From the NCBI RefSeq assembly GCF_042242105.1, contig NC_092030.1:132501-196500 (forward strand): a DNA stretch of 64,000 nucleotides. Reading direction: 5' to 3'. The notes beneath the pieces were generated by a model. The model was not told the DNA's origin. It was given only the letters and a program-made list of their open reading frames with translations, and ran no database searches. The translations under genes and the position numbers were made by a program. The DNA comes from Pempheris klunzingeri. Taxonomy: Eukaryota > Chordata > Actinopteri > Acropomatiformes > Pempheridae. Position 1 is the first letter of the stretch, and each line of letters begins with the position of its first letter. Positions 1,899 through 57,560 of this stretch are shown here, piece by piece.

Positions 1899-4800
1899 AT
1901 GGAGTTCCGGAGTGAGGAGATGTGTTTGGCCCAGTTGTTCCTGCAGTCTGGCTCCGAGTACGACTGCATCAGTGAGCTGGGGGAGCTGGGCCTGGTGGAG
2001 TTCAGAGACGTAAGTGATCCTGTCTGTCTGTCTGTCTATATCTGTCTGTCTGTCTATCTATCTATATCTGTCTGTCTGTCTGTCTATCTATATCTGTCTG
2101 TCTATATCTGTCTGTCTGTCTATCTGTCTGTCTATATCTGTCTGTCTGTCTGTCTATCTATATCTGTCTGTCTGTCTGTCTATCTATATCTGTCTGTCTG
2201 TCTGTCTATCTATATCTGTCTGTCTGTCTGTCTGTGTCATTGATGATACCAGAGCTGTTCTGGAGCTGTGTAGAGCAGCCATGATGGTGATGAAGATGAT
2301 GGTGATGAAGATGATGACCTGTAGTGCTCTTCTTCCTCTTCCAGCTCAACCCCAGCATCAGCTCGTTCCAGCGGCGCTTCGTCAGTGAGATCAAGAGGTG
2401 TGAGGAGATGGAGAGGATTCTGGGTAAGAGACCACCTGGTGGGGGGAGGGGACTCCCAGGGGGGGGTTAGGTGGGCGGCGTGTAGCTGATAACATCAGCG
2501 TCTCTGTGGACAGGCTTCCTCCTGAGGGAGATCCAGAAGGCCCACATCGCCGTCCCCGAGGAGGACGACAGTCCACTGGCGCCCCCCCCCAGACAGGTGC
2601 TGGAGATCATGGTAAGGTTGTCATGGTTACAGACATGTTTACTGTGGAACGTCTTTTTAAACAGGTAACGTGTTTGTCTTGTGTGATTGGGTATGGATAA
2701 ACGTGGACCGAGTGCAGACCTGTGCTCACGTCTCTGTGGATGTCAGCTGACCTCTGTGAGGGAACATGCCTGGGGGGGGCGCCATGTGATCATCAGAGAA
2801 TATAAACCTGGTCCTGCTGTTATCACCTGGTTTATTCGCGTCCTCTCTGCTACGTCACCTGTCAGACACCTGGACCAGTCCTTCACTCGTGTCCTGGATC
2901 ACAGCTCCGTCTCGCCTCCATCAAGCTCTCACACGGGTCGGGCCTCATCCAGGTGTCTGACAGTACGTCATGTATGGATACAGTCAGCCCCCCCCCCCCC
3001 CCCAATCCTCTGACTAACGCAGAGATGGTGTGTTCAGGTGTGTCAGTGTGGCCCTCAGGTGTGTGGGTCTGGTCCTGAGGTTACCTGGGCAGTGGGTCCT
3101 GATTGGTGCGTTGGTGTGCAGGAGCAGCTCCAGCGGCTGGAGATGGAGCTCAGCGAGGTGGCCAGAAACAAGGAGAAGCTGCAGAGGAACCTGCTGGAGC
3201 TCATCGAGTACACACACATGCTAAGGATCACACGCAGCTTCATGCACAGCCGCTCCAGGGTGAGTGTCCCCCCCCCCACCCACCCACCCGCCCATCTCAC
3301 CCGCCCATCTCACCCTGCTCCACCCCCCCATCTCACCTGAGTGACACCTGCTCCCTCTCTGTTGATCAGCACGAGGCTCTCGGCCCCCAGTATGAAGAGT
3401 TCCCCACCGTGGAGACGGATTTGGTCACCGGCTGCACCGGCATGCAGAGGCTGGGAGCCAAGCTGGGGTGAGCTGCACCACGAGTCACCTAACACAGCAG
3501 GAAGTGGCGATATCACATGACCCTGACCCTGGTCGGCCTCTGCAGGTTTGTGTCCGGGCTCATCCAGCGGGTGAAGGTGGAGGCCTTTGAGCGCATGCTG
3601 TGGAGGGTGTGTAAGGGTTACACCATCCTCAGCTACGCCGAGGTGGACGAGAACCTGGCCGACCTCGACACGGTGAGTTAACCTGTCTGTATCTGACAGC
3701 GTAACGGGCGCCAGGAGGAATGTTTCCTCTGTCTGCGGATGCCAAAAAGGATTGTGAAACCGGTTTTCTCCTCAGTCGGAGCTGTCGGTCAGGTCGCCCG
3801 GTCTGGCTGACACTCTGTGCTGCGTTCAGGCTGACATCACATGATCCCACGCACTAATCAGAGCTCAGACGGCCAGTGGCTGATTCCAGTTCAGTCAGTG
3901 AGGGATCAAAGGGATGAGCCTCATCGTTAGTCAGTATTCAGACGAAAGTCGGCGGTGGGTTACTGACGGTAACGAGCAGTTAGCCAGATGACGCTGTAGT
4001 CGTTCAGGTACGAGGTGAATCCTCCTGGGGTCCAGCAGATGGGCAGGGCCTGCAGTAGATCCATGGAAACGTCCTTCTCTGTCTCTGGTTCAGCATATAA
4101 CAGTGTAAGCGGTCTGTTCTGTTCCAGGGGGAGATCAGTAAAAGCGTTGTGTTCCTCATCTCCTTCTGGGGAGACCAGATCGGACAGAAGGTTCAAAAGA
4201 TCTGCGACTGGTAAGAACGTAGCAGTTACATGACCTCACATGTCCACACCTGTGTGTGTCCTGAATCATGAGCGTCCACGCGTCTATGCTGTCCTTAGCT
4301 ACCACTGCCACCTCTACCCCCACCCCGAGAACGACGAGGAGCGGGCAGACGTGTTGGACAGCCTGCGGACGCGGATCCAGGACCTGAACAACGTAGGACA
4401 GCCGAGCCTGGGACAGGAGCTGTGAACAGGTACGCTCTCAGCGGGCCGTCTGGCAGTAACTGTGCTGTTCCTGCAGGTGCTGCACCGCACCGAGGACTAC
4501 CTGAGGCAGGTGCTGCAGAAGGCTTCCGAATCTGCCTACATCTGGGTGGTGCAGGTGAAGAAGATGAAGGCCATCTACCACATCCTGAACCTGTGCAGCT
4601 TTGACGTTACCAACAAGTGTCTGATAGCCGAGGTGTGGTGTCCTGTAAGTGACCTGGCAAACCTGCGGGGGGCGCTAGAGGAGGGCTCGGTGAGTATCTT
4701 TATCTCCTCCTCTGCTCTCATGGTTCATGTTGGCCTTCATATCTGGTCTGATTTATCATGTCTGCCCCCCGCCTCATATTTTATGGTTCTGTGTTGTCTG

Positions 4801-6417
4801 TGCATCTGTGGAGCGTCACATCGGAGAATAATCTTTTTCCAGGCTCTCGCAGCGATGATGATGAGCTGTGAAGGACTCGTTTCACCTGCTTTAATCCTGA
4901 CGAGCCCCCGTCCTCAACCACACGTCTGTCTTCTGTTTCCCATCATCCTTTGTTGTTTGCATCACTCTGTGTTTTACTCTCCTGTTGGATCGCTAACGTC
5001 AGCTCATGCTGCTACAGGCTGCTCGTTTGTCTCATTTAGCAGAGACGGAGAGATCACAGAACATCACCAGTGTTTTCTGAGTAACTTCCACACTCCTCGT
5101 TGTGTCTTTAACAGAGGAAAGGCGATGCAACCGTCCCGTCCTTTGTGAACCGGATCCCCAGCAACGACACGCCACCCACCCTGCTGAGAACCAACAAGTT
5201 CACGTCTGGCTTCCAGAGCATCGTGGAGGCCTACGGGGTGGGGGACTATCGCGAGGTAAGCCCAGGTAAGAGCTTGCCGTGTCCTCGCCCTGATCAGTGA
5301 CATCTGACGGTCTGCATGTGACGGCCCGCTGAACACCTGTCTGTCATCGGCAGCCCCCTACACCATCGTCACCTTCCCCTTCCTGTTCGCTGTGATGTTC
5401 GGGGACCTTGGCCACGGGGCGGTGATGAGCCTGTTTGCCCTGTGGATGGTGCTGACAGAGAGGAAGCAGAAGAAGCAGCGTTCCAGTAATGAGGTGGGAC
5501 TCCTGCCCTCTGTCACGCACAGCCTTAGACTTAGACTTGGACTTCTTTTATTGATCCCCCATAGGGGGAAATTTACATGTTACAGCAGCAACAATAGCCT
5601 GATCACTGCAGCTCATGCTCAGCTTACACCGCTGTCTCTCTCGCTCTCAGATATGGGCAACGTTCTTCAGTGGGCGGTACATCATCCTGATGATGGGGCT
5701 GTTCTCTGTCTACACCGGCCTCATCTATAACGACTGTTTCTCCAAGTCTCTCAACATGTTCGGCTCCGGCTGGAGCGTCAGGGCCATGTTCAGAAGCCAG
5801 CAGTGGACGTGAGTGTCACGCTCGCACACGTCGTGTCCCAGTGTCTCTGTCCATGTGATGTTTCCCTCCTGATTCGTGTCTTTTTCCAGAAACCAAACCC
5901 TCCAGACCAACGCTCTGCTCACATTGGACCCAAACGTCAGCGGGGTGTTCAGCGGGCCGTACCCCTTCGGCATCGACCCCGTGAGTAAACGCACCCAGAC
6001 GTTACAGTGAGGCAGACTGGGCTCCGTCTCATGTCCCTGACTTGTCCCTGATGTGTCTCTAACATCCATCAGATATGGAACATGGCGGTGAACCGGCTGT
6101 CCTTCCTCAACTCCTACAAGATGAAGATGTCTGTTGTCATCGGGGTCGTCCACATGAGCTTTGGAGTGGTGCTCAGTGTCTTCAATCACCTGTGAGATTT
6201 AAGTCTTTTCTGTTCTCGTTCTGACAGAGAGGCCTCTGACTGTGGGGTGGGGTGTTTGGTGCGTTGTGACAGTCACAAGGCTGTGATTCTGTATTCGTAC
6301 AGCAGCAGCCTGCAGACAGCTGACAGGCTCTGTGGTCTGTTTGGAGTCCCGAGATCAGATGACCCACAGCAGGATTCACTCCTGCTTCAGACGTGTCCTG
6401 AAACCTGCAGCACTCAG

Positions 6418-13330: not shown

Positions 13331-13462
13331 AAGCACGTGGGGGGAGGCTGACGGCGCAGGCCCAGCAGCCGTGTCGCAGGCTGTTTCGGGTCGGTGGTGT
13401 TGTCCAGGTGGAGGCTCGGACTCAGCACGTGTTTTCCTTACAGAGACGACGATGATACGAAC

Positions 13463-14643
13463 ATGATCAGCGCCGATGGCCTCTCTACATGTGAGGCGAC
13501 TCAGCGCGGCTGGAGGAGGAGGCCCCCCGCGGAGATGCTCCACCTGCTGTCGGCCGTCGTGGTGTGGCTGGTGACCGGGACCACCATCTCCAGCCTCAAC
13601 AAATGGATCTTCGCCGTGTACAACTTCAGGTACCCGCTGCTGCTGTCCGCTCTGCACATGCTGACAGCCATCGTGGTGGACTACGGGCTCATCAAGCTGC
13701 GGCTGATCCGCCTCAGGGGGGCCGCGGAGCAGGACCTGACCCCCAGCGCCAAGTGTAAGGTGTTCCTGCTGAGCCTGACCTTCTGCGCCAGCATCGCCTT
13801 CGGGAACATGGGCCTGAACTACGTCCAGCTGTCGTTTGCACAGATGATCTACACCACCACCCCCCTCTTCACCTTGGCCATCTCCACGCTGATCCTGGGA
13901 AAGCAGCACCACATCCTCAAGTACACCGCCATGATGCCCATCTGCCTGGGCGCCTCCTTCAGCATCATGGGAGAGGTCCAGTTCGATCAGACCGGCTGCT
14001 TCTTTGTGTTTGCAGCGACGATGTTGAGGGGGGTCAAGTCCATTCAGCAGAGTAAGTGCCTCCCCTTTTAATTCTTTGCCTCAGACTGTTGGTCCTGTTG
14101 TCACTGCAGAAATAGAAAGTGGAAACTTCCAGTCACTCACAGACCTCAGAGGCTGTTTCAGTGTTTCCTGCTGTAGAGCTCCACTGAGTCAGTCTTTAAA
14201 GGTGGAAAGTCTCCTGGTTTCTCAGGAAACAAGAGGATGGGTGGGAGCGTTCAGGGTCTCCACGTCCTGTGGACACACTGACGTCTGCTGTCCAACTCTT
14301 TGGTTCCGATAAAGTGAAGTGACAGATGTGTTCCCGTTTGCTGACGGTTTATACAGACACACGGGCCTGAAACTGTGCAGAGGAGGACACCAGGCGCTCT
14401 GTTACTGAGTGGATTATCCTGGGGACAGAGACTCGCTGTACAATACAGCGTATGGCTTTAGTTTCAGGGGAACAGACATGTCCCTTTTCTCTAATTTCAG
14501 TCATGAGCTCTGCGTGGATCCTGTGTGTCATTTATCTGATCTGATCTAATCACTGTAGAGACTGGGTTAGTCTCTCTAGTGCCACCAGTCCCCACAGCAT
14601 CAGCTGTCCAAAGAAAACAGAGTGAGGACTTTCTCAGACCTGT

Positions 14644-14684
<41 letters not shown>

Positions 14685-15982
14685 GACGTCCAGCAGACTT
14701 TTATTTTTGATCATGACTTAACGGCTCCAGACCAGCAGGACGATGCTGTCTCAGGTTTCGCTGACCTATTTTCTCCCTCACTAGGTGCTGTTTAACGTGT
14801 GGGTCAGAGGAGCTGCCCCCCCCCCCACGTTCATAAACACATCATACATGTGCTCTGCTTGTCCACACGCCAACAGAGCTCACACATACGCTTCATCATG
14901 AGTTTTGCATTCTTTCCTGCCGTCAGACTGCTTCAGACTGAGCTGGTGAGCAGATCAGAGTCTGTCCTCTTTCTTCTGACCACAAATCCAAATCCTCAGA
15001 GAGTCTGAGGTCAGGACGAGGCCCAGATCTCTTCTGAGCAGGAAAGTAGAAGAAGAAACTATAGTCTTAGTCTGGCCTCATGTCATACATCAGGCATACA
15101 TACATGCGTACATTATTCACGTATGTGATGGGGACGGAGCACATTAATGAACATCAGTGTAAAAATACCAGATGTAGACTTAACATAATTTACATGTGTC
15201 CTGTCCATCTGTAGTCCCTCAGCAGGGACTAAAGCAGGAACATTACAGGTGCCAATGTTAAGATACAGATATACAAACACACAGGAGACACGACACGTGG
15301 GGTTAGGACTGATCTCCACCTGTAAGTGACCGGTTAATAACTCGGGCGTTGTAGTTCGGGGGGGTTGGAGGAATGACCGTGCTGATGCTGCACGTCTGCA
15401 GCCAGAGCCTCATGTGTGTCTGTGTCTGCAGGCATCCTACTGCAGGAGGAGAAGATCAACTCGGTGTTCCTGCTCTACCTGATGTCCATCCCCAGCTTCT
15501 GCATCCTGGCCGTGGCGGCGCTCGCCTTGGAGAACTGGGCCGTGCTGGAGTCGCCCCTGCATTACGACCGCCGCCTGTGGGTCTTCATCCTGCTCAGCTG
15601 CCTGGGCTCGGTCCTGTACAACCTGGCCAGCTGCTGCGTCATCACGCTCACCTCCGCCGTCACGCTGCACATCCTGGGCAACCTGAGCGTGGTGGGAAAC
15701 CTGCTGCTGTCACAGCTGCTGTTCGGCAGCGAGCTGTCGGCCCTCAGCTGTGCCGGCGCCGCACTCACGCTGTCCGGCATGCTCATCTATCAGAACTCGG
15801 AGTTCATCGTCGGCTACCTGGACGCTCGCAGGGCCAGGGCCAAAGAGTCCGGACAGGTGGACTTCCAGTCTACGGGGGGACTGGGACAGAGCCGGAGCAA
15901 TGAGCCAGCAGCAGAGGACGGACAGGAAACAGGAAGACGAGACCGACTGAACGATGAAGGAGACTGTAGGAGACGGATCTGA
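13463..15982 (+). CDS. slc35e4: solute carrier family 35 member E4
   Basis: Two coding exons, 13463-14051 and 15432-15982, join in phase 1 and give 379 residues. The protein belongs to the triose-phosphate/nucleotide-sugar transporter (TPT/EamA) fold with about ten hydrophobic helices, and probably sits in Golgi or other internal membranes; the substrate of SLC35E4 is not established. Recognisable segments are TISSLNKWIF, NFRYPLLLSALHM, FGNMGLNYVQLSFAQMIYTT, ATMLRGVKSIQQ at the exon junction and SAVTLHILGNLSVVGN in the second half. The start is the first ATG after the acceptor at 13443; a later in-frame ATG at 13535 would remove only a short soluble N-terminus. The C-terminus is hydrophilic and Gln/Arg/Glu-rich. 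Placement beside smoothelin and inpp5j matches the human chromosome 22 order and supports the name. Confidence 0.87.
14641..14682. repeat. (GT)n microsatellite in the slc35e4 intron
   Basis: Uninterrupted GT dinucleotides, about 20 units. Confidence 0.95.
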
Positions 15983-18589: not shown

Positions 18590-18842
18590 TGAGTGCCCCA
18601 GCAGCCTCCTGACAGGTCAGACCCCCCCGTGGTCAGTGGGGAACATGACTATATTTGTCCTGATCACAGCTACTCCGAGGCTGTGGCACCAACAGACCTT
18701 CCTCCTCAGCGTCTGCTCTTCATCACACAGGATCGGGTTCAGGTCTGAATCCTCCTCCTCACACTGACGTGCTGACGCCTCCTGCTGCCTCCACGTCTCC
18801 TCCTCTGAGACCCTCTGATCATATGTGTTCTCTTCCTCAGAC

Positions 18843-22070
<3,228 letters not shown>

Positions 22071-25815: not shown

Positions 25816-28800
25816 ATGGATCACATGCGGCAGAAACCGGTCAGGTTTGACCCCCACGCTCCGGTCAGACCTGGTCCTCCAAAGCTCGCCATCCAGCAGC
25901 CACCGGAGGCGCCTGGGCGGCGCGCCGAGCAGGTCTCCCCCGTGGAAGTATCTGAACAGATGAGGTCCGCTCCAGCGGCGCTGGCGAGCATCAGCCGGCC
26001 GAGGCCGACGGCTCTTGGATCCAAAGCCGCTCCAAAGCCACCCAGAGTCCCGGCGGACGCCGAACTGATCCCGCTTTGTATCCCGGGACCTCAGAGCACT
26101 AGCGTCCTGCCACTTTCCCCCGCCGACTCCCCCGTCTCCCCCCACAGCTCGCAGCCTCACCTGAGCCCCACCCCCCAGCCCTCCAGCCTCAGCCCAACGC
26201 CAAGGACCCCCCCACCCGGGAGCTCAGCGCAGGGTCAGGTGCATTCTGGGAAAGCAGCAGGAGAGAGTGACAACTTCAGGTAAGACCAACACGGACCTCG
26301 TCACTAAAACGCACTGCGTGACCCCCCGTCTCACTCATGGTGGTGGATTCAACCCCAGCGCCAACGCTTAGATTTCTGAGGGTCCTTGAACTTACCACCA
26401 GGCAGAAAGATAGGAGGCCGTTAACAAGTAATCAATCAACCAGTCAGTCAGTCTGTCAATCAATCAATCTGCAATTCACTCACTCAATCACATGACAGCA
26501 GCCACATGTGATTGATTGATTTATTGATCAGTTAATCAAAAGAAGATTAACAGGTAGATCAGTGATCGATCACATGTGCCATCTCTCTGGGTTTGATTTC
26601 AGGAAACCTCAATCCTGACGTTTTATTGATTAAATGGTGAAGTGACTGATTGACCCGATCAATACTCTCTGTCTGTCTCTCTCTCTGGCTGTCTCCCTCT
26701 CTCTCTCTACCTGTGTCCTGCTTTCTCCCTGTCTCTCTCCCTGCCTGTCTGTCTCTCTGACAGGGTCCACATAGTAACGTGGAACGTGGGATCAGCCGTC
26801 CCTCCAGATGACATCAGTTCTCTGTTTGGACAGAAGACTGTGGACATGTTTGTCATTGGGTCAGTGGAGACCACATGACCACCGCTCGCTCACCTGTACC
26901 CCCCCTTTGTACCTGTCATACCTAATGCTGCTGTGCCCCCCCCCCCCCCCAGGCTCCAGGAGGTGAACTCCATGATAAACAAGCGTCTGAAGGACGTGCT
27001 GTTCTCCGACCAGTGGAGCGAGCGCTGCATGGACACCCTCAGCCCATCTGGATACGTCCTGGTCAGTGTGCCCCCCCCCCCCCCCCCCCCCCGTTCTGCA
27101 CGTCAGCACGGCGGGGGGGGGCGTCGTGCTGACGTTCGCGTCTGTCCCGTCCTGTAGGTTGCGTCCCAGCGGATGCAGGGGGTGCTGCTGCTTGTCTTCT
27201 CCAGGTTCGTCCACTTGCCGTTCCTGAGGGGCGTCCAGACGGAGAGCACACGCACCGGCCTGGGGGGGTACTGGGTAGGTCTGCCCCCCCCCACATTCAC
27301 AATGACTGTGTGACTGTGTGTGTGACTGTGTGTGTGACTGTGTGTGTGACTGTGTGACTGTGTGTGTGACTGTGTGTGTGACTGTGTGTGTGACTGTGTG
27401 ACTGTGTGACTGTGACTGTGTGTGTGTGTGTGACCTTCCTGTGTGTATTGATATCAGACCCCCCCCCCTCAGTGCTGCTGCAGTCTCCTTCTCTGAGAGG
27501 TCAGTGCAGCACCTGTCTGTCTCTCTGTCAGGGGAACAAAGGGGGGGTCAGCGTGAGGATGACCGTGTACCTGTCTGTCTCTCTGTCAGGGGAACAAAGG
27601 GGGGGTCAGCGTGAGGATGACCGTGTACCTGTCTGTCTCTCTGTCAGGGGAACAAAGGGGGGGTCAGCGTGAGGATGACCGTGTACCTGTCTGTCTCTCT
27701 GTCAGGGGAACAAAGGGGGGGTCAGCGTGAGGATGACCGTGTTCGGACACCCCGTGTGCTTCCTGAACTGCCACCTGCCGGCCCACATGAGGAACCTGGA
27801 GCAGCGGGTGGAGGACTTTGAGAGCATCCTCCAGCAGCAGCAGTTTGACGGGGGGGCGGCCAGCGGCGTGCTGGACCACGAGTGGGTGACCCCTCCCCCA
27901 CAGACTGTAGATACACACACGCGCGCTGTCATCGTGCGGTGTGTGTGGTCAGTGTGTGTCGTGTGTCCTGACGGTGATGTCTGTCTGTCCCTCCTGTCCT
28001 GTCTATCCCTCCTGACCTGTCTTTCCTGTCCTGTCTGTCTCTCTGCCCCCCCCCAGCGTGGTGTTCTGGTTCGGGGATCTAAACTTCCGTATTGAGGACT
28101 ACGACATCCACGTGGTCAAATGTGCCATCGACAGCAACAAGCTGCCTCTGCTGTGGGAGAGAGACCAGGTGAGACCCCCCCACAGACAGACAGGAGGGAG
28201 GGACAGACAGGAGCGAGAGACAGACATACATATTCTCTCTCCACCTGTCTGTCGGACTGAATACCTGTCTGTCTGTCTGTCGGTCTGGCTGAATACCTGT
28301 CTGTCTGTCTCTCTCTCCACCTGTCTGTCTGAATACTTGTCTCTCTCTCCACCTGTCTCTCTCTCTCCAGCTCAACATGGCTAAAAACACTGAGTCCATC
28401 CTGGACGGCTTCCAGGAGGGGGCGCTCAACTTCCCCCCGACGTACAAGTTTGATGTCGGCACGCACACTTATGACACCAGGTCGGGTCAGCCTCCTTCAC
28501 CTCATCCTCCTCTTCCTCGCCTCATCCTCCTCTTCCTCGCCTCATCCTCCTCTTCCTCGCCTCATCTTCCTCTTCCTCGCCTCATCCTCCTCTTCCTCTC
28601 CTCATCCTCCTCTTCCTCGTCTCTTCCTCCTCTTTCTCTCCTCATCCTCCTCTTCCTCGTCTCTTCCTCCTCTTTCTCTCCTCATCCTCCTCTTCCTCAC
28701 CTCATCCTCCTCTTCCTCGCCTCATCCTCCTCTTCCTCGCCTCATCCTCCTCTTCCTCTCCTCATCCTCCTCTTCCTCGTCTCTTCCTCCTCTTTCTCTC

Positions 28801-46461: not shown

Positions 46462-47356
46462 AAGTAAATCAGAGCACACTGGGGTCTATCAGGGCACACG
46501 AGTGTATCAGAGCACACTGGGGTCTATCAGGGCACACTGGGGTCTATCAGAGCACACGGGTGTATCAGAGCACACTGGGGTCTATCAGGGCACACTGGGG
46601 TCTATCAGAGCACACTGGGGTCTATCAGGGCACACTGGGGTGTCTCAGAGCACACTGGGGTGTCTCAGGGCACACTGGGGTGTCTCAGGGCACACTGGGG
46701 TGTCTCAGAGCACACTGGGGTGTATCAGGGCACACTGGGGTGTATCAGGGCACACTGGGGTGTCTCAGGGCACACTGGGGTCTATCAGGGCACACTGGGG
46801 TCTATCAGAGCACACTGGGGTGTCTCAGGGCACACTGGGGTCTATCAGGGCACACTGGGGTGTATCAGGGCACACTGGGGTGTCTCAGGGCACACTGGGG
46901 TGTCTCAGGGCACACTGGGGTCTATCAGGGCACACTGGGGTCTATCAGAGCACACTGGGGTGTCTCAGGGCACACTGGGGTCTATCAGGGCACACTGGGG
47001 TGTATCAGGGCACACTGGGGTCTATCAGGGCACACGGGTGTATCAGAGCACACTGGGGTGTCTCAGGGCACACTGGGGTGTATCAGGGCACACTGGGGTC
47101 TATCAGGGCACACTGGGGTGTCTCAGGGCACACTGGGGTGTATCAGGGCACACTGGGGTGTATCAGAGCACACTGGGGTGTCTCAGAGCACACTGGGGTG
47201 TCTCAGGGCACACTGGGGTGTCTCAGAGCACACTGGGGTGTATCAGGGCACACTGGGGTGTATCAGAGCACACTGGGGTGTCTCAGGGCACACTGGGGTG
47301 TATCAGAGCACACTGGGGTGTCTCAGAGCACACTGGGGTGTCTCAGGGCACACTGG
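46462..47356. repeat. 20-bp minisatellite (GTGTCTCAGGGCACACTGGG)
   Basis: About 44 near-identical 20-bp units vary at two positions (TCTATC/TGTATC/TGTCTC and AGAGCA/AGGGCA). It is open in all three forward frames because a 20-bp unit read three ways has no stop. The resulting 250-308 residue frames are not genes. Confidence 0.95.
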
Positions 47357-47447
47357 GTCCTAGTTATCTGTTATCTGGACGCACAGACTTCCCAGACGTC
47401 CCTCCAGGTTTATCTTTATGACGAGTAGTCCAGTAACCCAGACTCAG

Positions 47448-50860: not shown

Positions 50861-51016
50861 CAAGGAAGGAGGAAGTGACTGACAGGAGCTTCACCTGAGC
50901 AACCCAGGGAGGGCGAGGCCTCAAGGCCCCCGTCTGAATATAAGGAGGTGCTGCAGTCACACACAGCACCGCAAACTCCTCCTGTCCACGAGCATCCGAA
51001 CGCCTCACAGAGACAG
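50861..51016 (+). promoter_or_regulatory. mpx: promoter and untranslated first exon of the peroxidase gene
   Basis: AATATAAG at about 50937-50944 can serve as a TATA box. About 25-30 bases on begins a plausible 5' UTR exon ending at a GTAACA donor (51016/51017). Just upstream, GGAGGAAGTG near 50868-50877 is a good ETS/PU.1-type site, in keeping with myeloid expression; this last point is inference. Confidence 0.5.
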
Positions 51017-51518: not shown

Positions 51519-52173
51519 ATGCTTCTGTCCGTCGTCCTCGTGCTGGGCGTCGGCCTGCTGCCCGCTCAATCCAAACCAGCAGGTAGGTGTGAAGGGCCGA
51601 GGGCGCAGCCTGAGTGTGTGTGTGTGTTACATCAGTGCTCAGGTTTAAATGATGAGAGTGTTGTTTGTTTGCAGGAGAATATCTGGGCAGTCCTCTCCTC
51701 CAGCAGTGTTTTGAGGAGGCCAAGAAGATTGTGGATGATGCGTACAGATACTCCAGAGAAGAGTGAGTCCGTCCTCTGGGTTACTTAATGAAACAGTAGA
51801 TGATCTTCCACATCAGCGCAGCTTCTGTGTTCCCTGCTTCATGAACGCAGCACAACACAGCAGCTCACTGCCACAGCTCACTGCCACAGCTCAGTAAAGT
51901 CAAACCTTCCACAGCCGGACTTCACTGTGTGCCATTTTCTCCTCCAGGAGTGTGAGACGAGTCCGCAGGGAGGAGGTGCGTCCTCACGACGCTCTCCGTC
52001 TCATGAAGCAGCCCCGTGGTCTGACGCGCTCGGCCGTGAGGTCTGCAGACTACATGGCACAAACCCTCCGTCTGCTGCATGAAAGGGTGCATCATGTCCA
52101 CAAACGCTCTCTGAATGCAACAGGTTAGACACACACACACACTCACACACACACACACAGAGACACACAGACA

Positions 52174-52208
<35 letters not shown>

Positions 52209-52273
52209 ACACACAGACAGACACACACACACACACACTCACACACACACACACAGAGACACACAGACAGACA

Positions 52274-52308
<35 letters not shown>

Positions 52309-52711
52309 ACACACACACACACACACACAGAGACACACAGACAGACACACACACACACACACTCACACACACACACACAGAGACACACAGACAGACAGAC
52401 ACACACACACACACACACACACAGAGACACACAGACAGACACACACACACACACACACAGACAGACACACACACACACAGAGAGACACACAGACAGACAC
52501 ACACACACACACACACAGACAGACACACACACACACAGAGAGACACACAGACAGACACACACACACACACACAGACAGACACACACACACACACACACAC
52601 ACACAGAGAGACACACAGACAGACACACACACACACACACAGACAGACACACACACACACACACACACAGAGAGACACACAGACAGACACACACACACAC
52701 ACACACAGACA

Positions 52712-52751
<40 letters not shown>

Positions 52752-52943
52752 GACACACACACACACACACACACACAGAGACACACACTCACACACAGAG
52801 AGAGACACACACACACACACTCACACACAGAGACACACACACACACACACACACTCACACACACACACACACTCACACACACAGAGAGACACACACACAC
52901 ACACACTCACACACTCACACACAGAGAGACACACAGACACACA

Positions 52944-52988
<45 letters not shown>

Positions 52989-55900
52989 ACACACACACAC
53001 ACTCACACACAGAGACACACACACACACAGACACACACACACACACACACTCACACACAGAGACACACACAGAGAGACACACAGACACACACACACACAC
53101 AGAGACACACACAGACAGCCTGAGGTGTATTGTTCTGTAATGTCACTGGGGGGTTAATCAGACATAAACACCCATCAGACGTGTCTTTGGTGTTTTTCAG
53201 ATTTGCTCAGTGCAGAGGACCTGAGGAGGCTTGCAGAGATAACTGGGTGTGTTGGTCAGGTCAGACCTCCGCAGTGCCGCACTATACAGAACCTGAACAA
53301 GTACCGCACAGCCTCCAGCGTCTGCAACAACATGTAAGAGTCCTGGTGGCACGATGCTGTATGTGATGTATGTTGACTGTGTCACAGCATCTTGGACATG
53401 GACAGAAGAACACAGATATACGTTTCTATGTTTAATATGTCTCTAACGTCTAGAGAACTAAAGCAGCCTCCCTGCTGTCTGTTTCCCACATGTATGTCAG
53501 AAAAACCTGGTCTTTCCTTCCTCCAGTCAGTGTCTCTGTGAGACGGAGCGGTCACACTTTCACAGGAAACACTTGTGAAATCCACCTAAACATCAGAGGC
53601 CAAACACAGCAGAGGTTGTGTTCACTTCCCAAACGTGTGTCTCTTGTTTGCTGTTAGGAAACATCCTCGCCGCGGAGCCTCTAACACGGCTTTTATCCGC
53701 TGGTTACCTGCCGAATATGACGACGGGATCGCCCAGCCCAAAGGCTGGGACAGGAACCGCACGTTCAACAACTTCCTGCTCCCGCTGGTATGACTGCGAC
53801 CCTAACCCAACACTCACGCTGGCCAGCAGAGGTAAAAGGTAGTTTGAGCTAAAACTGAGCACATCTCCTCCGCTCTCAGGTGCGACAGGTGTCCAACAAC
53901 ATCCTGAGCACGACGGACGCGGGCGTGGTCAACGACACACAGTTCACCCACATGGTGACCTTGTTTGGGCAGTGGAACGACCACGACCTCACCTTCACGC
54001 CGTTCTCCCCCAGCATCGTCTCCTTCAGCAACGGGGTCGACTGTGAGGAGAGCTGTGAGAGGGTCGAGCCCTGCATCCCCATCGAGGTGGGTGTCACGAC
54101 GCTGACGCGTTGTTTCCCCCCCCCCCCCCCCAGATTCTCTCCATGACCTTCAACCTCTGTCTCCCACTAAAACAGATTCCTCCCAACGACCCCCGCCTGC
54201 CCACCGGCCCCGACAGCTGCATTCCCTCCTTCAGGTCCGCCCCCACCTGCGGGACAGGGTACTCGGCCTACAACTTTGGCGGCGAGCCTAACAAGAGAGA
54301 GCAGATCAACGCCCTGACGGCATTCCTGGACCTCGGCCAGGTGTACGGCTCCGACGACAGTCTGGCGCTGCGTCTTCGTGACCTGGAGAACGACGGCGGC
54401 CTGCTGCGCGTCAACACCAACTTCAGAGACAACGGCCGCGAGCTGCTGCCCCCCGATCCCATGCCCACCAACATGTGTGCCACTCGCCGGAAAATCACCA
54501 ACGACACCAACGCCAGGGAGGTGCCCTGCTTCCTCGCAGGTGAGTCTGTCGGGCACCAGAAACCAGCGACCGGTAGTTCGAGTTACCGGATGTGTGATGT
54601 GTGCATGTCCGTCTGTCAGGTGACGTCCGTACAAATGAGAACATCGCTCTGACGTCCATCCACACGCTCTTCATGCGTGAACACAACCGGCTGGCTCGTG
54701 AGCTGAAGAGACTGAACCCCCACTGGGACAGCGAGACGCTCTACCAGGAGGCCCGCAAGATCGCCGGCGCCTACACACAGGTAACAACAGTAAAACCCAC
54801 AGGGGTGCAGAGCGCCCCACAGTGGAGACACACACACATTAAACCCACAGAAGAAGGTGAACCTGAGAGTCACACCTGAGAGTCACCCCCCCCCCCCCCG
54901 TGTGTCTCAGCTGTTTGTCTTCAGGGACTACCTGCCTCACATTCTGGGTCCAGACATTATGAGAAATCTTGGCCGTTACCCCGGCTACGACCCCAACGTC
55001 GACCCCAGCATCTCCAACTGCTTTGCGACAGCAGCCTACCGCTTTGCCCACCTCGCCATCCAGCCGTTCTTGGGCCGCCTGGACGCAAACTACCGGGAGA
55101 GCTCTCAGTTCCCCAGCGTCCCCCTGTTCAAGGCCTTCTTCACCCCCTGGAGGATTGTCTATGAGGGTGAGTTGTGCACTGAGACCCCCCCTCAGTCAGT
55201 GTGTCCCCGGCTGTCGGCCTGACGTGTGTTTTCTCTGTCCAGGCGGCATCGACCCTGTGATCCGCGGTCTGATTGGCCGGCCCGCCAAGCTGAACACTCA
55301 GGACCACATGATGGTGAACGCTCTGAGGGAGCGCCTCTTCCAGTTTGTGCAGCACATGGCGCTGGACCTGGGCTCGCTCAACATGGAGAGGGCCCGAGAC
55401 CACGGCCTGCCCGGTAAGGCCTGGCTCCGTCCTTCCGCCTGCTGACATCTGGTGTCTTTTCTCACCGTCTTTTTATCTTCTAATCGTCTCTGTTCGGCTC
55501 TTTGTTTCAGGCTACAACGCCTGGCGCAAGTTCTGCAAGCTGTCTCAGCCCAAGAACCAGGAGGAGCTCGCTCGTGTGCTCAACAACAGCGACCTGGCCA
55601 GCAGGCTGCTGCAGCTCTACGGCACGCCGGACAACATCGATGTGTGGCTTGGGGGGGTGGCAGAGCCGTTCGTAAGGGGAGGCCGGGTGGGGCCTCTGCT
55701 GGCCTGCCTCATCGCAATGCAGTTCAAGAAGATCCGCCAGGGGGACAGGTCAGTGTGCAGTAATGTGTGATTCCACTGGGGGTGTGGGACTCACCCCTGG
55801 AGGGGTCAAAGTCTACATTTTAGAGATGAAGTCATCTCAGGTCATTTCACCCTTTAACTCCAGATTTAGACCTGTGGGGGGGGCTGTGTTTGCTCACTAA

Positions 55901-57240
55901 CGCAGCTCGTCTCTGTCTCTGCTCCTCCGGTTTAAAACCACCAGGCTGTGGAACGAGAAACCGGGCGTGTTCACTTCACGCCAGAGGACCGCCCTGTCCG
56001 CCGTCACCATATCCACCATCATCTGCGACAACACGGGCATCACGTCGGTCCCCCAGAAGGCCTTCGACATCCTGTCCTCCAGGAACCGACTGGTCAGGTG
56101 CTCCAGCATCCCGCGCCTGAACCTGTCGGCCTGGAGGGAGAAGCCCTGCTCTGAAAACTCAGGTGAAACAGCACTGCAGGGTTTTTTTGACCTGTGGGGG
56201 GCACCCACCCTATTTCTCATTCTGAGTTTAACCTGGTGTGTTTATTTCCCCCTGCTCACCTGAAAATCCCTTTCCTTATGTGGTGTTTGATGTTGCAGGC
56301 CCGGGTGATAGCTGTAATGAAGTCAGTGGAGCAGAGGTCGGTTTTGATTACTAACACGTGGTAGTCACATGTTAAAAACACCACCCGATCTAAAACGTGC
56401 ACATTCAGATCATACATGCTGGTGGTGGTGGTCCTCACTCCTAAACAAGCACTCATGCTTCACTAACACAGGCACTTTTTAAAAGTCCTTTACTTAAAAC
56501 TCCTTCACTTAAAACTCTAACTTCTGTGTCTTCTTCATACACAGAATGTGGACCAGATGGACCTCCAGGACCTGCAGGACCCCCAGGGCCTCCAGGACAA
56601 CGAGGTAGTTAGCGCTGGAGGTGTAAATAACACGTTCTGACTCCACAGTTTTTCTTTATTCTGACGCCGTCTGTGAGAAGGAAACGTCAGAAATGAGTCG
56701 TGGAGCATTCAATCAGAAGGAACCCACTGACCTCAGCAGAGACGCTCAGACACCCAGTGTGACATGTCCCGTCGTGTCTCCGCAGGTCCACTAGGCCCCC
56801 CAGGTCCCCCAGGTCCTAGAGGCCACCCAGGACCAGCAGCAGCCTGGACCAACGTCTCACAGCCACAGTCCGCCTTCTCCGTCCGCCTGGGCAACTACAA
56901 CCCCTCCTCCGAGCGAGTCCTCCGCTTCCGTCAGGTCATCTCCAACCAGCAGAACCACTACAGCACGCAGACAGGCGTCTTCACCTGCGCCGTCCCCGGG
57001 GTCTATCGCTTCAGCTTCCTCTGCACCGCCTTCACCGCCGCCAGGACCGTGGACCTGTGGCACAACAACGAGCGCGTGCAGCGTGGGTTTGTGGTGTACC
57101 AGGGAGGGCGCAACCTGTCGTCAGGGGACGCGGTGCTCCGGCTGGACAGGGGGGACCGAGTGTGGCTGGAGTCCAGCGACGGGACCTCCGGCCTCAGCAC
57201 CTCCAGCTTCTTCATGGGACACCTGCTCTTTGCTGTGTGA
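51519..57240 (+). CDS. mpx: myeloid haem peroxidase fused to collagen-like stalk and C1q domain
   Basis: Fourteen coding exons (51519-51582, 51675-51762, 51948-52123, 53201-53333, 53658-53787, 53880-54086, 54176-54539, 54620-54780, 54911-55166, 55243-55413, 55511-55748, 55945-56162, 56545-56604, 56786-57240) give 906 residues. A signal peptide ([18 protein letters not shown]) leads a propeptide and an animal haem peroxidase of the MPO/EPX/LPO family, which makes hypohalous acids from peroxide in granulocytes. Distal Gln228, Asp231 and His232 ([13 protein letters not shown]), Arg391 and Glu394 (GDVRTNEN), proximal His488 ([11 protein letters not shown]) and RDHGLPGYNAWR are intact. The MPO-specific methionine after Glu394 is Asn395, as expected for an EPX/LPO-like haem linkage. 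After [10 protein letters not shown] the frame continues into 12 Gly-X-Y triplets and a C1q domain. All splice phases agree. Fusion to C1q is inferred from the sequence and needs transcript proof. Confidence 0.85.
52125..53115. repeat. 0.99-kb (CA)n/(CAGA)n compound array in a peroxidase intron
   Basis: CA dinucleotides with recurring CAGAGACACACAGACAGACA blocks begin two bases after the donor at 52124. The 341-residue + frame and 301-residue - frame are repeat translation. Confidence 0.96.
56545..57240 (+). other. mpx: collagen-like and C1q exons of the peroxidase gene
   Basis: Exon 56545-56604 (60 bp, phase 1 at both ends) encodes [20 protein letters not shown]. Exon 56786-57240 completes the Gly, adds [18 protein letters not shown], then a linker and a roughly 125-residue C1q domain ([60 protein letters not shown]). 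C1q domains trimerise through collagen stalks and bind diverse ligands. No start codon with a signal peptide, no TATA box and no poly(A) signal was found between the peroxidase exon end (56162) and 56545, so a separate C1q gene is unlikely. Confidence 0.83.
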
Positions 57241-57560
57241 CACTGAACCGCTGCTGCCGCCGCCACCACCCGGGTCTGTCTGCTCCAGGACCTGTTTCCT
57301 CTGCTCAGCCCCCACTGATCAGGTCACATGTACTTAGAAACCTGTTATTGATTCTCTGTGTCTTCTTCACGGCTGTCAGACCAGACTGACGGCGCCACCG
57401 CCAGCCCGTTTTAAGGTGGAATTTCCTGGTGTTACTATGAATACTGTCTGCACTGATGAAGAACGTCTGTAAACGCTGCACTTCTGTCTGTGAGACTCAT
57501 TTCACTGTCACTGTAACGTCTGTTTTATATTCTCTGAATAAACTAAAGAAAAGAGCAGCA
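57241..57560 (+). promoter_or_regulatory. mpx: peroxidase-C1q 3' UTR and poly(A) signal
   Basis: About 300 bases after the TGA at 57238-57240. AATAAA at 57537-57542 is the first signal downstream of the whole gene, consistent with the C1q exon being its true terminus. Confidence 0.75.

Follow-up and report, generated by a model that had tools for sequence, protein, structure and literature searches.

Within a stretch of 64,000 nucleotides of Pempheris klunzingeri DNA (hereafter the window; NCBI RefSeq assembly GCF_042242105.1, contig NC_092030.1, positions 132,501 to 196,500 of the forward strand), the peroxidase gene at 51519-57240 on the + strand is likely a single gene in which a splice switch sets the frame of a dual-coding exon. 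In the arrangement that we propose, this teleost myeloid peroxidase gene would give rise to two proteins that differ at the C-terminus only and that are chosen by a cassette exon of 38 nucleotides: when the cassette is skipped, exon 13 would be read as Gly-X-Y triplets of a collagen stalk, which is followed by a C1q head (906 residues), and when it is included the frame would move by one, such that exon 13 would encode an acidic tail and translation would end just inside the last exon (770 residues).

The exon chain of the long form comprises 14 exons with GT/AG at every border and consistent phases, and encodes 906 residues plus a stop, reproducing the 907 codons with agreeing phases counted in the original prediction, which had been made from the sequence alone and took the fusion to be the product of the gene. 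As 16 chains whose borders differ by a few bases stay open, the DNA alone leaves some of these borders unfixed. Exons 1-13 and the start of exon 14 are settled by an NCBI protein from P. klunzingeri, P0002 (770 residues, without C1q; the closest match by identity and the second-ranked one to the fusion query among the matches listed), because a splice of the same exons in silico with the cassette included matches P0002 letter for letter. The cassette exon (56299-56336, AG/GT borders, + strand) lies in the intron 56163-56544 and had been overlooked in the original prediction. Since its 38 nucleotides equal 2 modulo 3, its inclusion alters the frame of exon 13 (56545-56604): these 60 nucleotides encode the collagen stalk in frame A (cassette skipped) and an acidic tail ending in NEVH in frame B (cassette included). 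The tail of P0002 thus derives from the cassette, then from exon 13 in the other frame and lastly from the TAG at 56792-56794, and it is the inclusion of the cassette that leaves P0002 without C1q. A stop codon in the last exon does not, by the usual rule, elicit nonsense-mediated decay, and as only six bases of the last exon precede the frame-B stop, the messenger RNA (mRNA) of the short form should escape it. The fusion chain of the original prediction therefore stands as open and intact, but as one of two forms, the database protein of the species being the acid-tailed one. Compared with 56299-57240 of the window, the P0002 record omits an intact C1q coding part, so that a fish peroxidase record can lack a C1q domain that the genome nonetheless encodes. 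A retained intron, with read-through of the exon 12 donor into a tail with a hydrophobic stretch, had also been considered as a possible membrane anchor and was dropped since P0002 is the cassette form. RNA structure around the cassette was nothing unusual (z -0.40).

The architecture is not unique to this sequence and is annotated in many teleosts. Relatives were collected as 196 different proteins, the best 120 of 1,478 matches together with the best 120 of 1,849, and by Pfam labels 67 of these 196 carry both An_peroxidase and C1q, 58 of the 67 with a Gly-X-Y stalk of at least four uninterrupted triplets. It is because the two domains and the stalk recur in this way that an assembly error at the junction appears very unlikely, and the placement of peroxidase, stalk and C1q in one gene, with agreeing phases, is borne out by the recurrence of the same order. 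The listed fusions include Lates, Plectropomus, turbot, smelt, milkfish, herring, sardine, carps, characins, eels and Arapaima; the gene is annotated in teleosts as ‘eosinophil peroxidase’ (isoform X1) or ‘myeloid-specific peroxidase’, and acid-tailed relatives are often labelled isoform X2. Models from Scatophagus, Plectropomus, Clupea, Ctenopharyngodon, Lates and Anguilla share the peroxidase-stalk-C1q order and occur in the two kinds described here, long and short; they differ from the window gene in sequence and not in kind, whereas the database product of the window species omits the fusion exons. A fusion reading frame of 893 residues (P0129), sister in our tree to a Danio aesculapii sequence, occupies a contig of 2,932 bases, the size of a spliced mRNA, which fits an mRNA (a retrocopy being the alternative), and the acid-tailed form occurs in four mRNA-sized contigs (P0044, P0090, P0101 and P0190); no zebrafish protein was found among the matches listed. 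The tree, a rapid one whose base is unresolved, was built from 61 rows picked to cover clades (58 of the 196 relatives, a piece of P0001, the window protein and MPO). C1q products appear in each of its main groups, that is in 15/15 rows of one group, 20/38 of the group of the window protein, 3/6 of the eel-tarpon group and in Arapaima, a distribution that probably dates the fusion back to the origin of the teleosts. Mapping the presence of C1q on the tree required 14-15 changes, from which losses were not counted, since labels differ between products of congeners. Among the matches listed from titles and abstract openings of the open-access literature, a scope that leaves most subscription papers outside, no description of a peroxidase-C1q protein or of the dual-coding exon was found.

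Three side observations emerged from these relatives. The clade with Clupea_2, Anguilla_2, Centroberyx_2 and Dicentrarchus_2 is a second teleost peroxidase paralogue, with C1q in all 15 sampled rows. The top-ranked match, P0001 from Symphorus nematophorus (1,505 residues), has two peroxidases before one C1q and probably represents adjacent genes that were merged. In Antarctic notothenioids and their kin (P0014, P0015, P0017, P0024, P0054 and P0055) the models show an enlarged, repetitive stalk region (QEPQEPQVPQ-like in some and RNLKSPRFPRNLKYPS-like in others), as though the collagen exon had undergone a repeat expansion that each model translates in its own frame.

Whether one DNA can encode both the stalk of a long form and the tail of a short form was asked of 18 chosen pairs (9 from the same species, six species in all; 3 congeneric; 6 wider), with 200 shuffles for each. 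At an offset of +1 all 18 pairs share a run of 10-27 residues, compared to 4-6 residues at the control offset of +2 and to shuffle maxima of 6-10, and in 10 of the 18 the run includes the frame-B stop. While the Pempheris pair holds by construction, both forms coming from one DNA, the clearest of the other pairs are Lates (27 residues), Scatophagus (24), one Myxocyprinus pair (23), Seriola congeners (23), Anguilla congeners (24) and Conger/Gymnothorax (24); the Cyprinus pairs have runs of 16 and 18 that do not reach the stop. The cassette length inferred under the +1 offset, for 9 of the 18 pairs, is 38 nucleotides in six, which range from eels to percomorphs; the remaining three give 32, 23 and 41 nucleotides. 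The splice switch is probably older than the split between eels and perches, judging by these sequence comparisons.

Are both frames kept? In 117 of the 129 listed products without C1q, the last Trp of the region is followed by a tail of no fewer than 18 residues. The original prediction held that known vertebrate MPO, EPX and LPO end just after a WRE motif, which is true of mammals but not of these fish products. An N-[EKQLA]-[VIL] ending is present in 97 of the 117 tails (median net charge -7, range -31 to +5), and NEV or NEI is located close to the C-terminus in 74 of the 129. The DNE of frame B in the window requires GGA-CAA-CGA in frame A, and these codons account for 6.7% of Gly, 7.1% of Gln and 5.7% of Arg in the peroxidase part. 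GGA is used for 5 of 8 in the overlap compared to 5 of 56 elsewhere (Fisher p 0.0015), a weak contrast since collagen exons may favour this codon. Tails of eels and of perch-type fishes appear to agree on the DNE motif although third positions should long be saturated. The tails of Xiphophorus, Perca and Takifugu are acidic although they have room for no more than two or three hidden Gly-X-Y triplets, and frame B therefore seems able to outlive frame A, which seems to be dispensable in these fishes.

The peroxidase part itself was predicted to be complete with its catalytic residues, and this is upheld. The An_peroxidase profile (PF03098) covers residues 144-703 over its whole length (1-530/530, E 3.2e-183), and the peroxidase part with its propeptide aligns nearly full-length with solved myeloperoxidases (722-724 bits). 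Exon 1 (51519-51582) provides the start codon and a hydrophobic N-terminus that resembles a signal peptide by eye; exons 2 (51675-51762) and 3 (51948-52123) encode the propeptide and are followed by exon 4 (53201-53333), exon 5 (53658-53787) belongs to the peroxidase domain, and this domain ends in exon 12 (55945-56162). In between, exon 6 (53880-54086) holds the distal haem motif GQWNDHD, exon 8 (54620-54780) the RTNEN motif, with Arg239, Glu242 and the Asn found at the column of Met243, and exon 9 (54911-55166) the proximal His in RFAH, all three as placed by the alignment with MPO, while exons 7 (54176-54539), 10 (55243-55413) and 11 (55511-55748) complete the chain. The alignment was made with PDB 5mfa, which we take to be human MPO, with residue numbers and roles (that of the inter-subunit Cys included) as we assume them. 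Gln91, Asp94, His95, Arg239, Glu242, Arg333 and His336 are all retained, and a Cys is present at the column of the inter-subunit Cys of MPO, but Met243 is replaced by Asn395. In MPO, Met243 forms a sulfonium link to the haem, and the Asp and Glu are the ester-forming acids. The Met that would mark an MPO proper is thus absent, and the Asn at its column is invariant in the 33 fish sequences aligned (of the 196 listed). By the chemistry of these enzymes, this exchange should point to EPX/LPO-like rather than MPO-like halide use, with bromide or thiocyanate favoured. The gene resembles mammalian MPO, EPX and LPO in that peroxidase and propeptide align and that the catalytic Gln, His and Arg, the ester Asp and Glu and the inter-subunit Cys are kept, and it differs from them by its extra C-terminal exons and by Asn instead of Met243. 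Altogether, the protein appears to be secreted and its active site to be intact.

Frame A continues through exon 13 into exon 14 (56786-57240), which encodes the remainder of the collagen stalk and the C1q domain and ends with the stop at 57238-57240. The 12 uninterrupted Gly-X-Y triplets and the intact C1q domain that had been predicted are both confirmed: the triplets were counted by eye (the Pfam collagen profile at residues 738-772 scores 26.1 bits, just below its cut-off of 27.2), and the C1q profile is covered as a whole by residues 785-903 (E 2.1e-25; 89.8 bits against a cut-off of 23.7). In comparison with solved domains, the C1q part reaches about 1e-16 for adiponectin, CTRP5 and collagen X as single domains and 3.3e-50 for a three-copy adiponectin chain. 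It contains no stop and no frameshift, and keeps 32 of the 33 columns conserved in the C1q domain of 62 other fusions, a comparison from which 5 of the 67 C1q rows were left out (P0011, P0012, P0114, P0154 and P0155); over stalk and C1q together there are 40 conserved columns, with three differences in the window, two of them in the stalk. The stalk-C1q part alone as query retrieved four proteins among 473 candidates, in a search that requires shared exact words. An AlphaFold model of the Lates fusion P0003 (33 aligned rows, monomer) had a mean predicted local distance difference test score (pLDDT) of 46, with values of about 80-95 only in the C1q part, from residue 781, and we relied on it for neither the peroxidase part nor the stalk. 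Akin to members of the C1q/TNF superfamily (adiponectin, collagen X, C1q A/B/C, CTRP5), the window protein has a collagen-like stalk followed by a C1q domain, but it carries an enzyme in front and its stalk has just 12 triplets.

Several observations weigh against a conserved gene with two products. Eight of the 18 shared runs lack the stop (5 cross-genus; 3 in Myxocyprinus/Cyprinus, possibly between paralogues), two runs of 10 residues (another Myxocyprinus pair, and Astyanax against a contig) barely exceed their shuffle maxima of 9 and 8, three runs of 11 face shuffle maxima of 7, 6 and 7, and the compared pairs are mostly gene predictions. The preference for GGA, CAA and CGA may be a habit of collagen exons and not the outcome of selection on frame B. 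The tails of Xiphophorus, Perca and Takifugu, though acidic, could hide at most 2-3 Gly-X-Y triplets, and nine of the 67 C1q products, Arapaima included, are without a four-triplet stalk. The sole P. klunzingeri product found is the short form, no fusion product of this species being present among the database matches listed, so that the fusion could be rare or absent in the species. Lastly, confidence in the structure model of the Lates fusion is limited to its C1q part, and an oligomer and ligand binding are argued from analogy with the C1q family.

Some of these observations would be expected if the acid-tailed form alone were functional and the C1q exon were a decaying relic, sometimes joined on by annotation pipelines. 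This account, which we consider improbable although it survives best among the rivals, would accommodate the short form as the only P. klunzingeri product found among the matches listed, the percomorph tails that can no longer hide a Gly-X-Y frame, and an identity to Lates of 65% in the stalk-C1q part compared to 84% in the peroxidase part; it is difficult to reconcile with a C1q domain that is free of stops and frameshifts and keeps all but one of its conserved columns, and with fusion models in 67 relatives plus a fusion reading frame in an mRNA-sized contig. Conversely, only the C1q-headed peroxidase might be made, with the cassette as an artefact of prediction, as an open and intact fusion frame and a conserved C1q domain would allow. 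We give this very little credence, as the NCBI model of P. klunzingeri uses the cassette, eel and carp pairs show an insert of 13 residues whose inferred length is identical, acid-tailed forms are found in the four mRNA-sized contigs, and the published flounder MPO, in the available part of the report, is a protein of 770 residues with a peroxidase domain, the length of the acid-tailed P0094 (PMC9908613). That adjacent peroxidase and C1q-like genes were wrongly joined, as the in-frame ATG upstream of the C1q exon (open reading frame 56764-57240) might suggest, is barely credible, since this frame begins within an intron, mid-stalk and without a signal-peptide-like start, while the exon phases agree and the junction recurs in 67 of the listed relatives.

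Around the gene, a candidate TATA-like sequence (AATATAAGG, 50937-50945, +) lies upstream and an AATAAA polyadenylation-type signal (57537-57542, +) downstream, both read from the sequence, and intron 3 contains a CA-type microsatellite of about 1 kb (52125-53110). Elsewhere in the window there are pieces of a V-ATPase 116-kDa subunit gene (4462-5145), of a triose-phosphate-transporter-type carrier (13394-15979, the second piece below the cut-off) and of smoothelin (18825-19526), a phosphatase-type piece just below its cut-off (27727-28092), and a long minisatellite (46502-47428, unit like SIRAHWGLSEHTGV) with long open frames that have no apparent coding significance.

Returning to a splice switch with a dual-coding exon, we infer that both forms would be made in P. 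klunzingeri. Cassette skipping would most likely yield an oligomeric C1q-headed peroxidase, and inclusion the soluble acid-tailed enzyme that is called MPO in fish papers, presumably secreted or stored in granules with its flexible tail, the ‘MPO’ of fish immunology. By analogy with the C1q family, the fusion form should trimerise and hold several peroxidase units on C1q ligands, perhaps in sets larger than trimers given the counterpart of the inter-subunit Cys of MPO, and the head would bring oxidant production to C1q-type ligands; trimers and the binding of microbes or apoptotic cells are what this analogy suggests. The available part of the flounder report describes an MPO of 770 residues (the same length as the acid-tailed flounder model P0094) with a calculated isoelectric point of 9.21, a signal peptide and a peroxidase domain, whose mRNA peaks in head kidney and whose blocking weakens the antibacterial effect of extracellular traps (PMC9908613); in the available part of its main text the words C1q, collagen and isoform do not occur.

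The use of one exon in two frames has precedents. INK4a/ARF reads one exon in two frames set by the upstream exon that is spliced on. At GNAS, with the XL-alpha-s/ALEX pair named in PMC2329644, one exon likewise gives different proteins in two frames. The window gene differs from both in that its two frames would be alternative C-termini of one enzyme, and in that the switch is a cassette and not an alternative first exon. We put at even chances the fuller proposition that the 60-nucleotide exon has been under two-frame selection since before the split between eels and perches, and that a single splicing decision converts the principal neutrophil peroxidase of fish (the zebrafish mpx family) from a soluble granule enzyme with an acidic tail to an oligomeric oxidant weapon guided by C1q.

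MPO/Mpx is a standard marker of neutrophils in fish and research treats it as a mammalian-type enzyme. Should many teleosts be able to equip it with a pattern-recognition head through exon skipping, antibodies, reporters and knock-outs may report just one of two proteins. The gene would also be a long-lived vertebrate example of one exon whose two frames supply different C-termini, both of use and one being a collagen repeat, and as such a test bed for the maintenance of overlapping coding.

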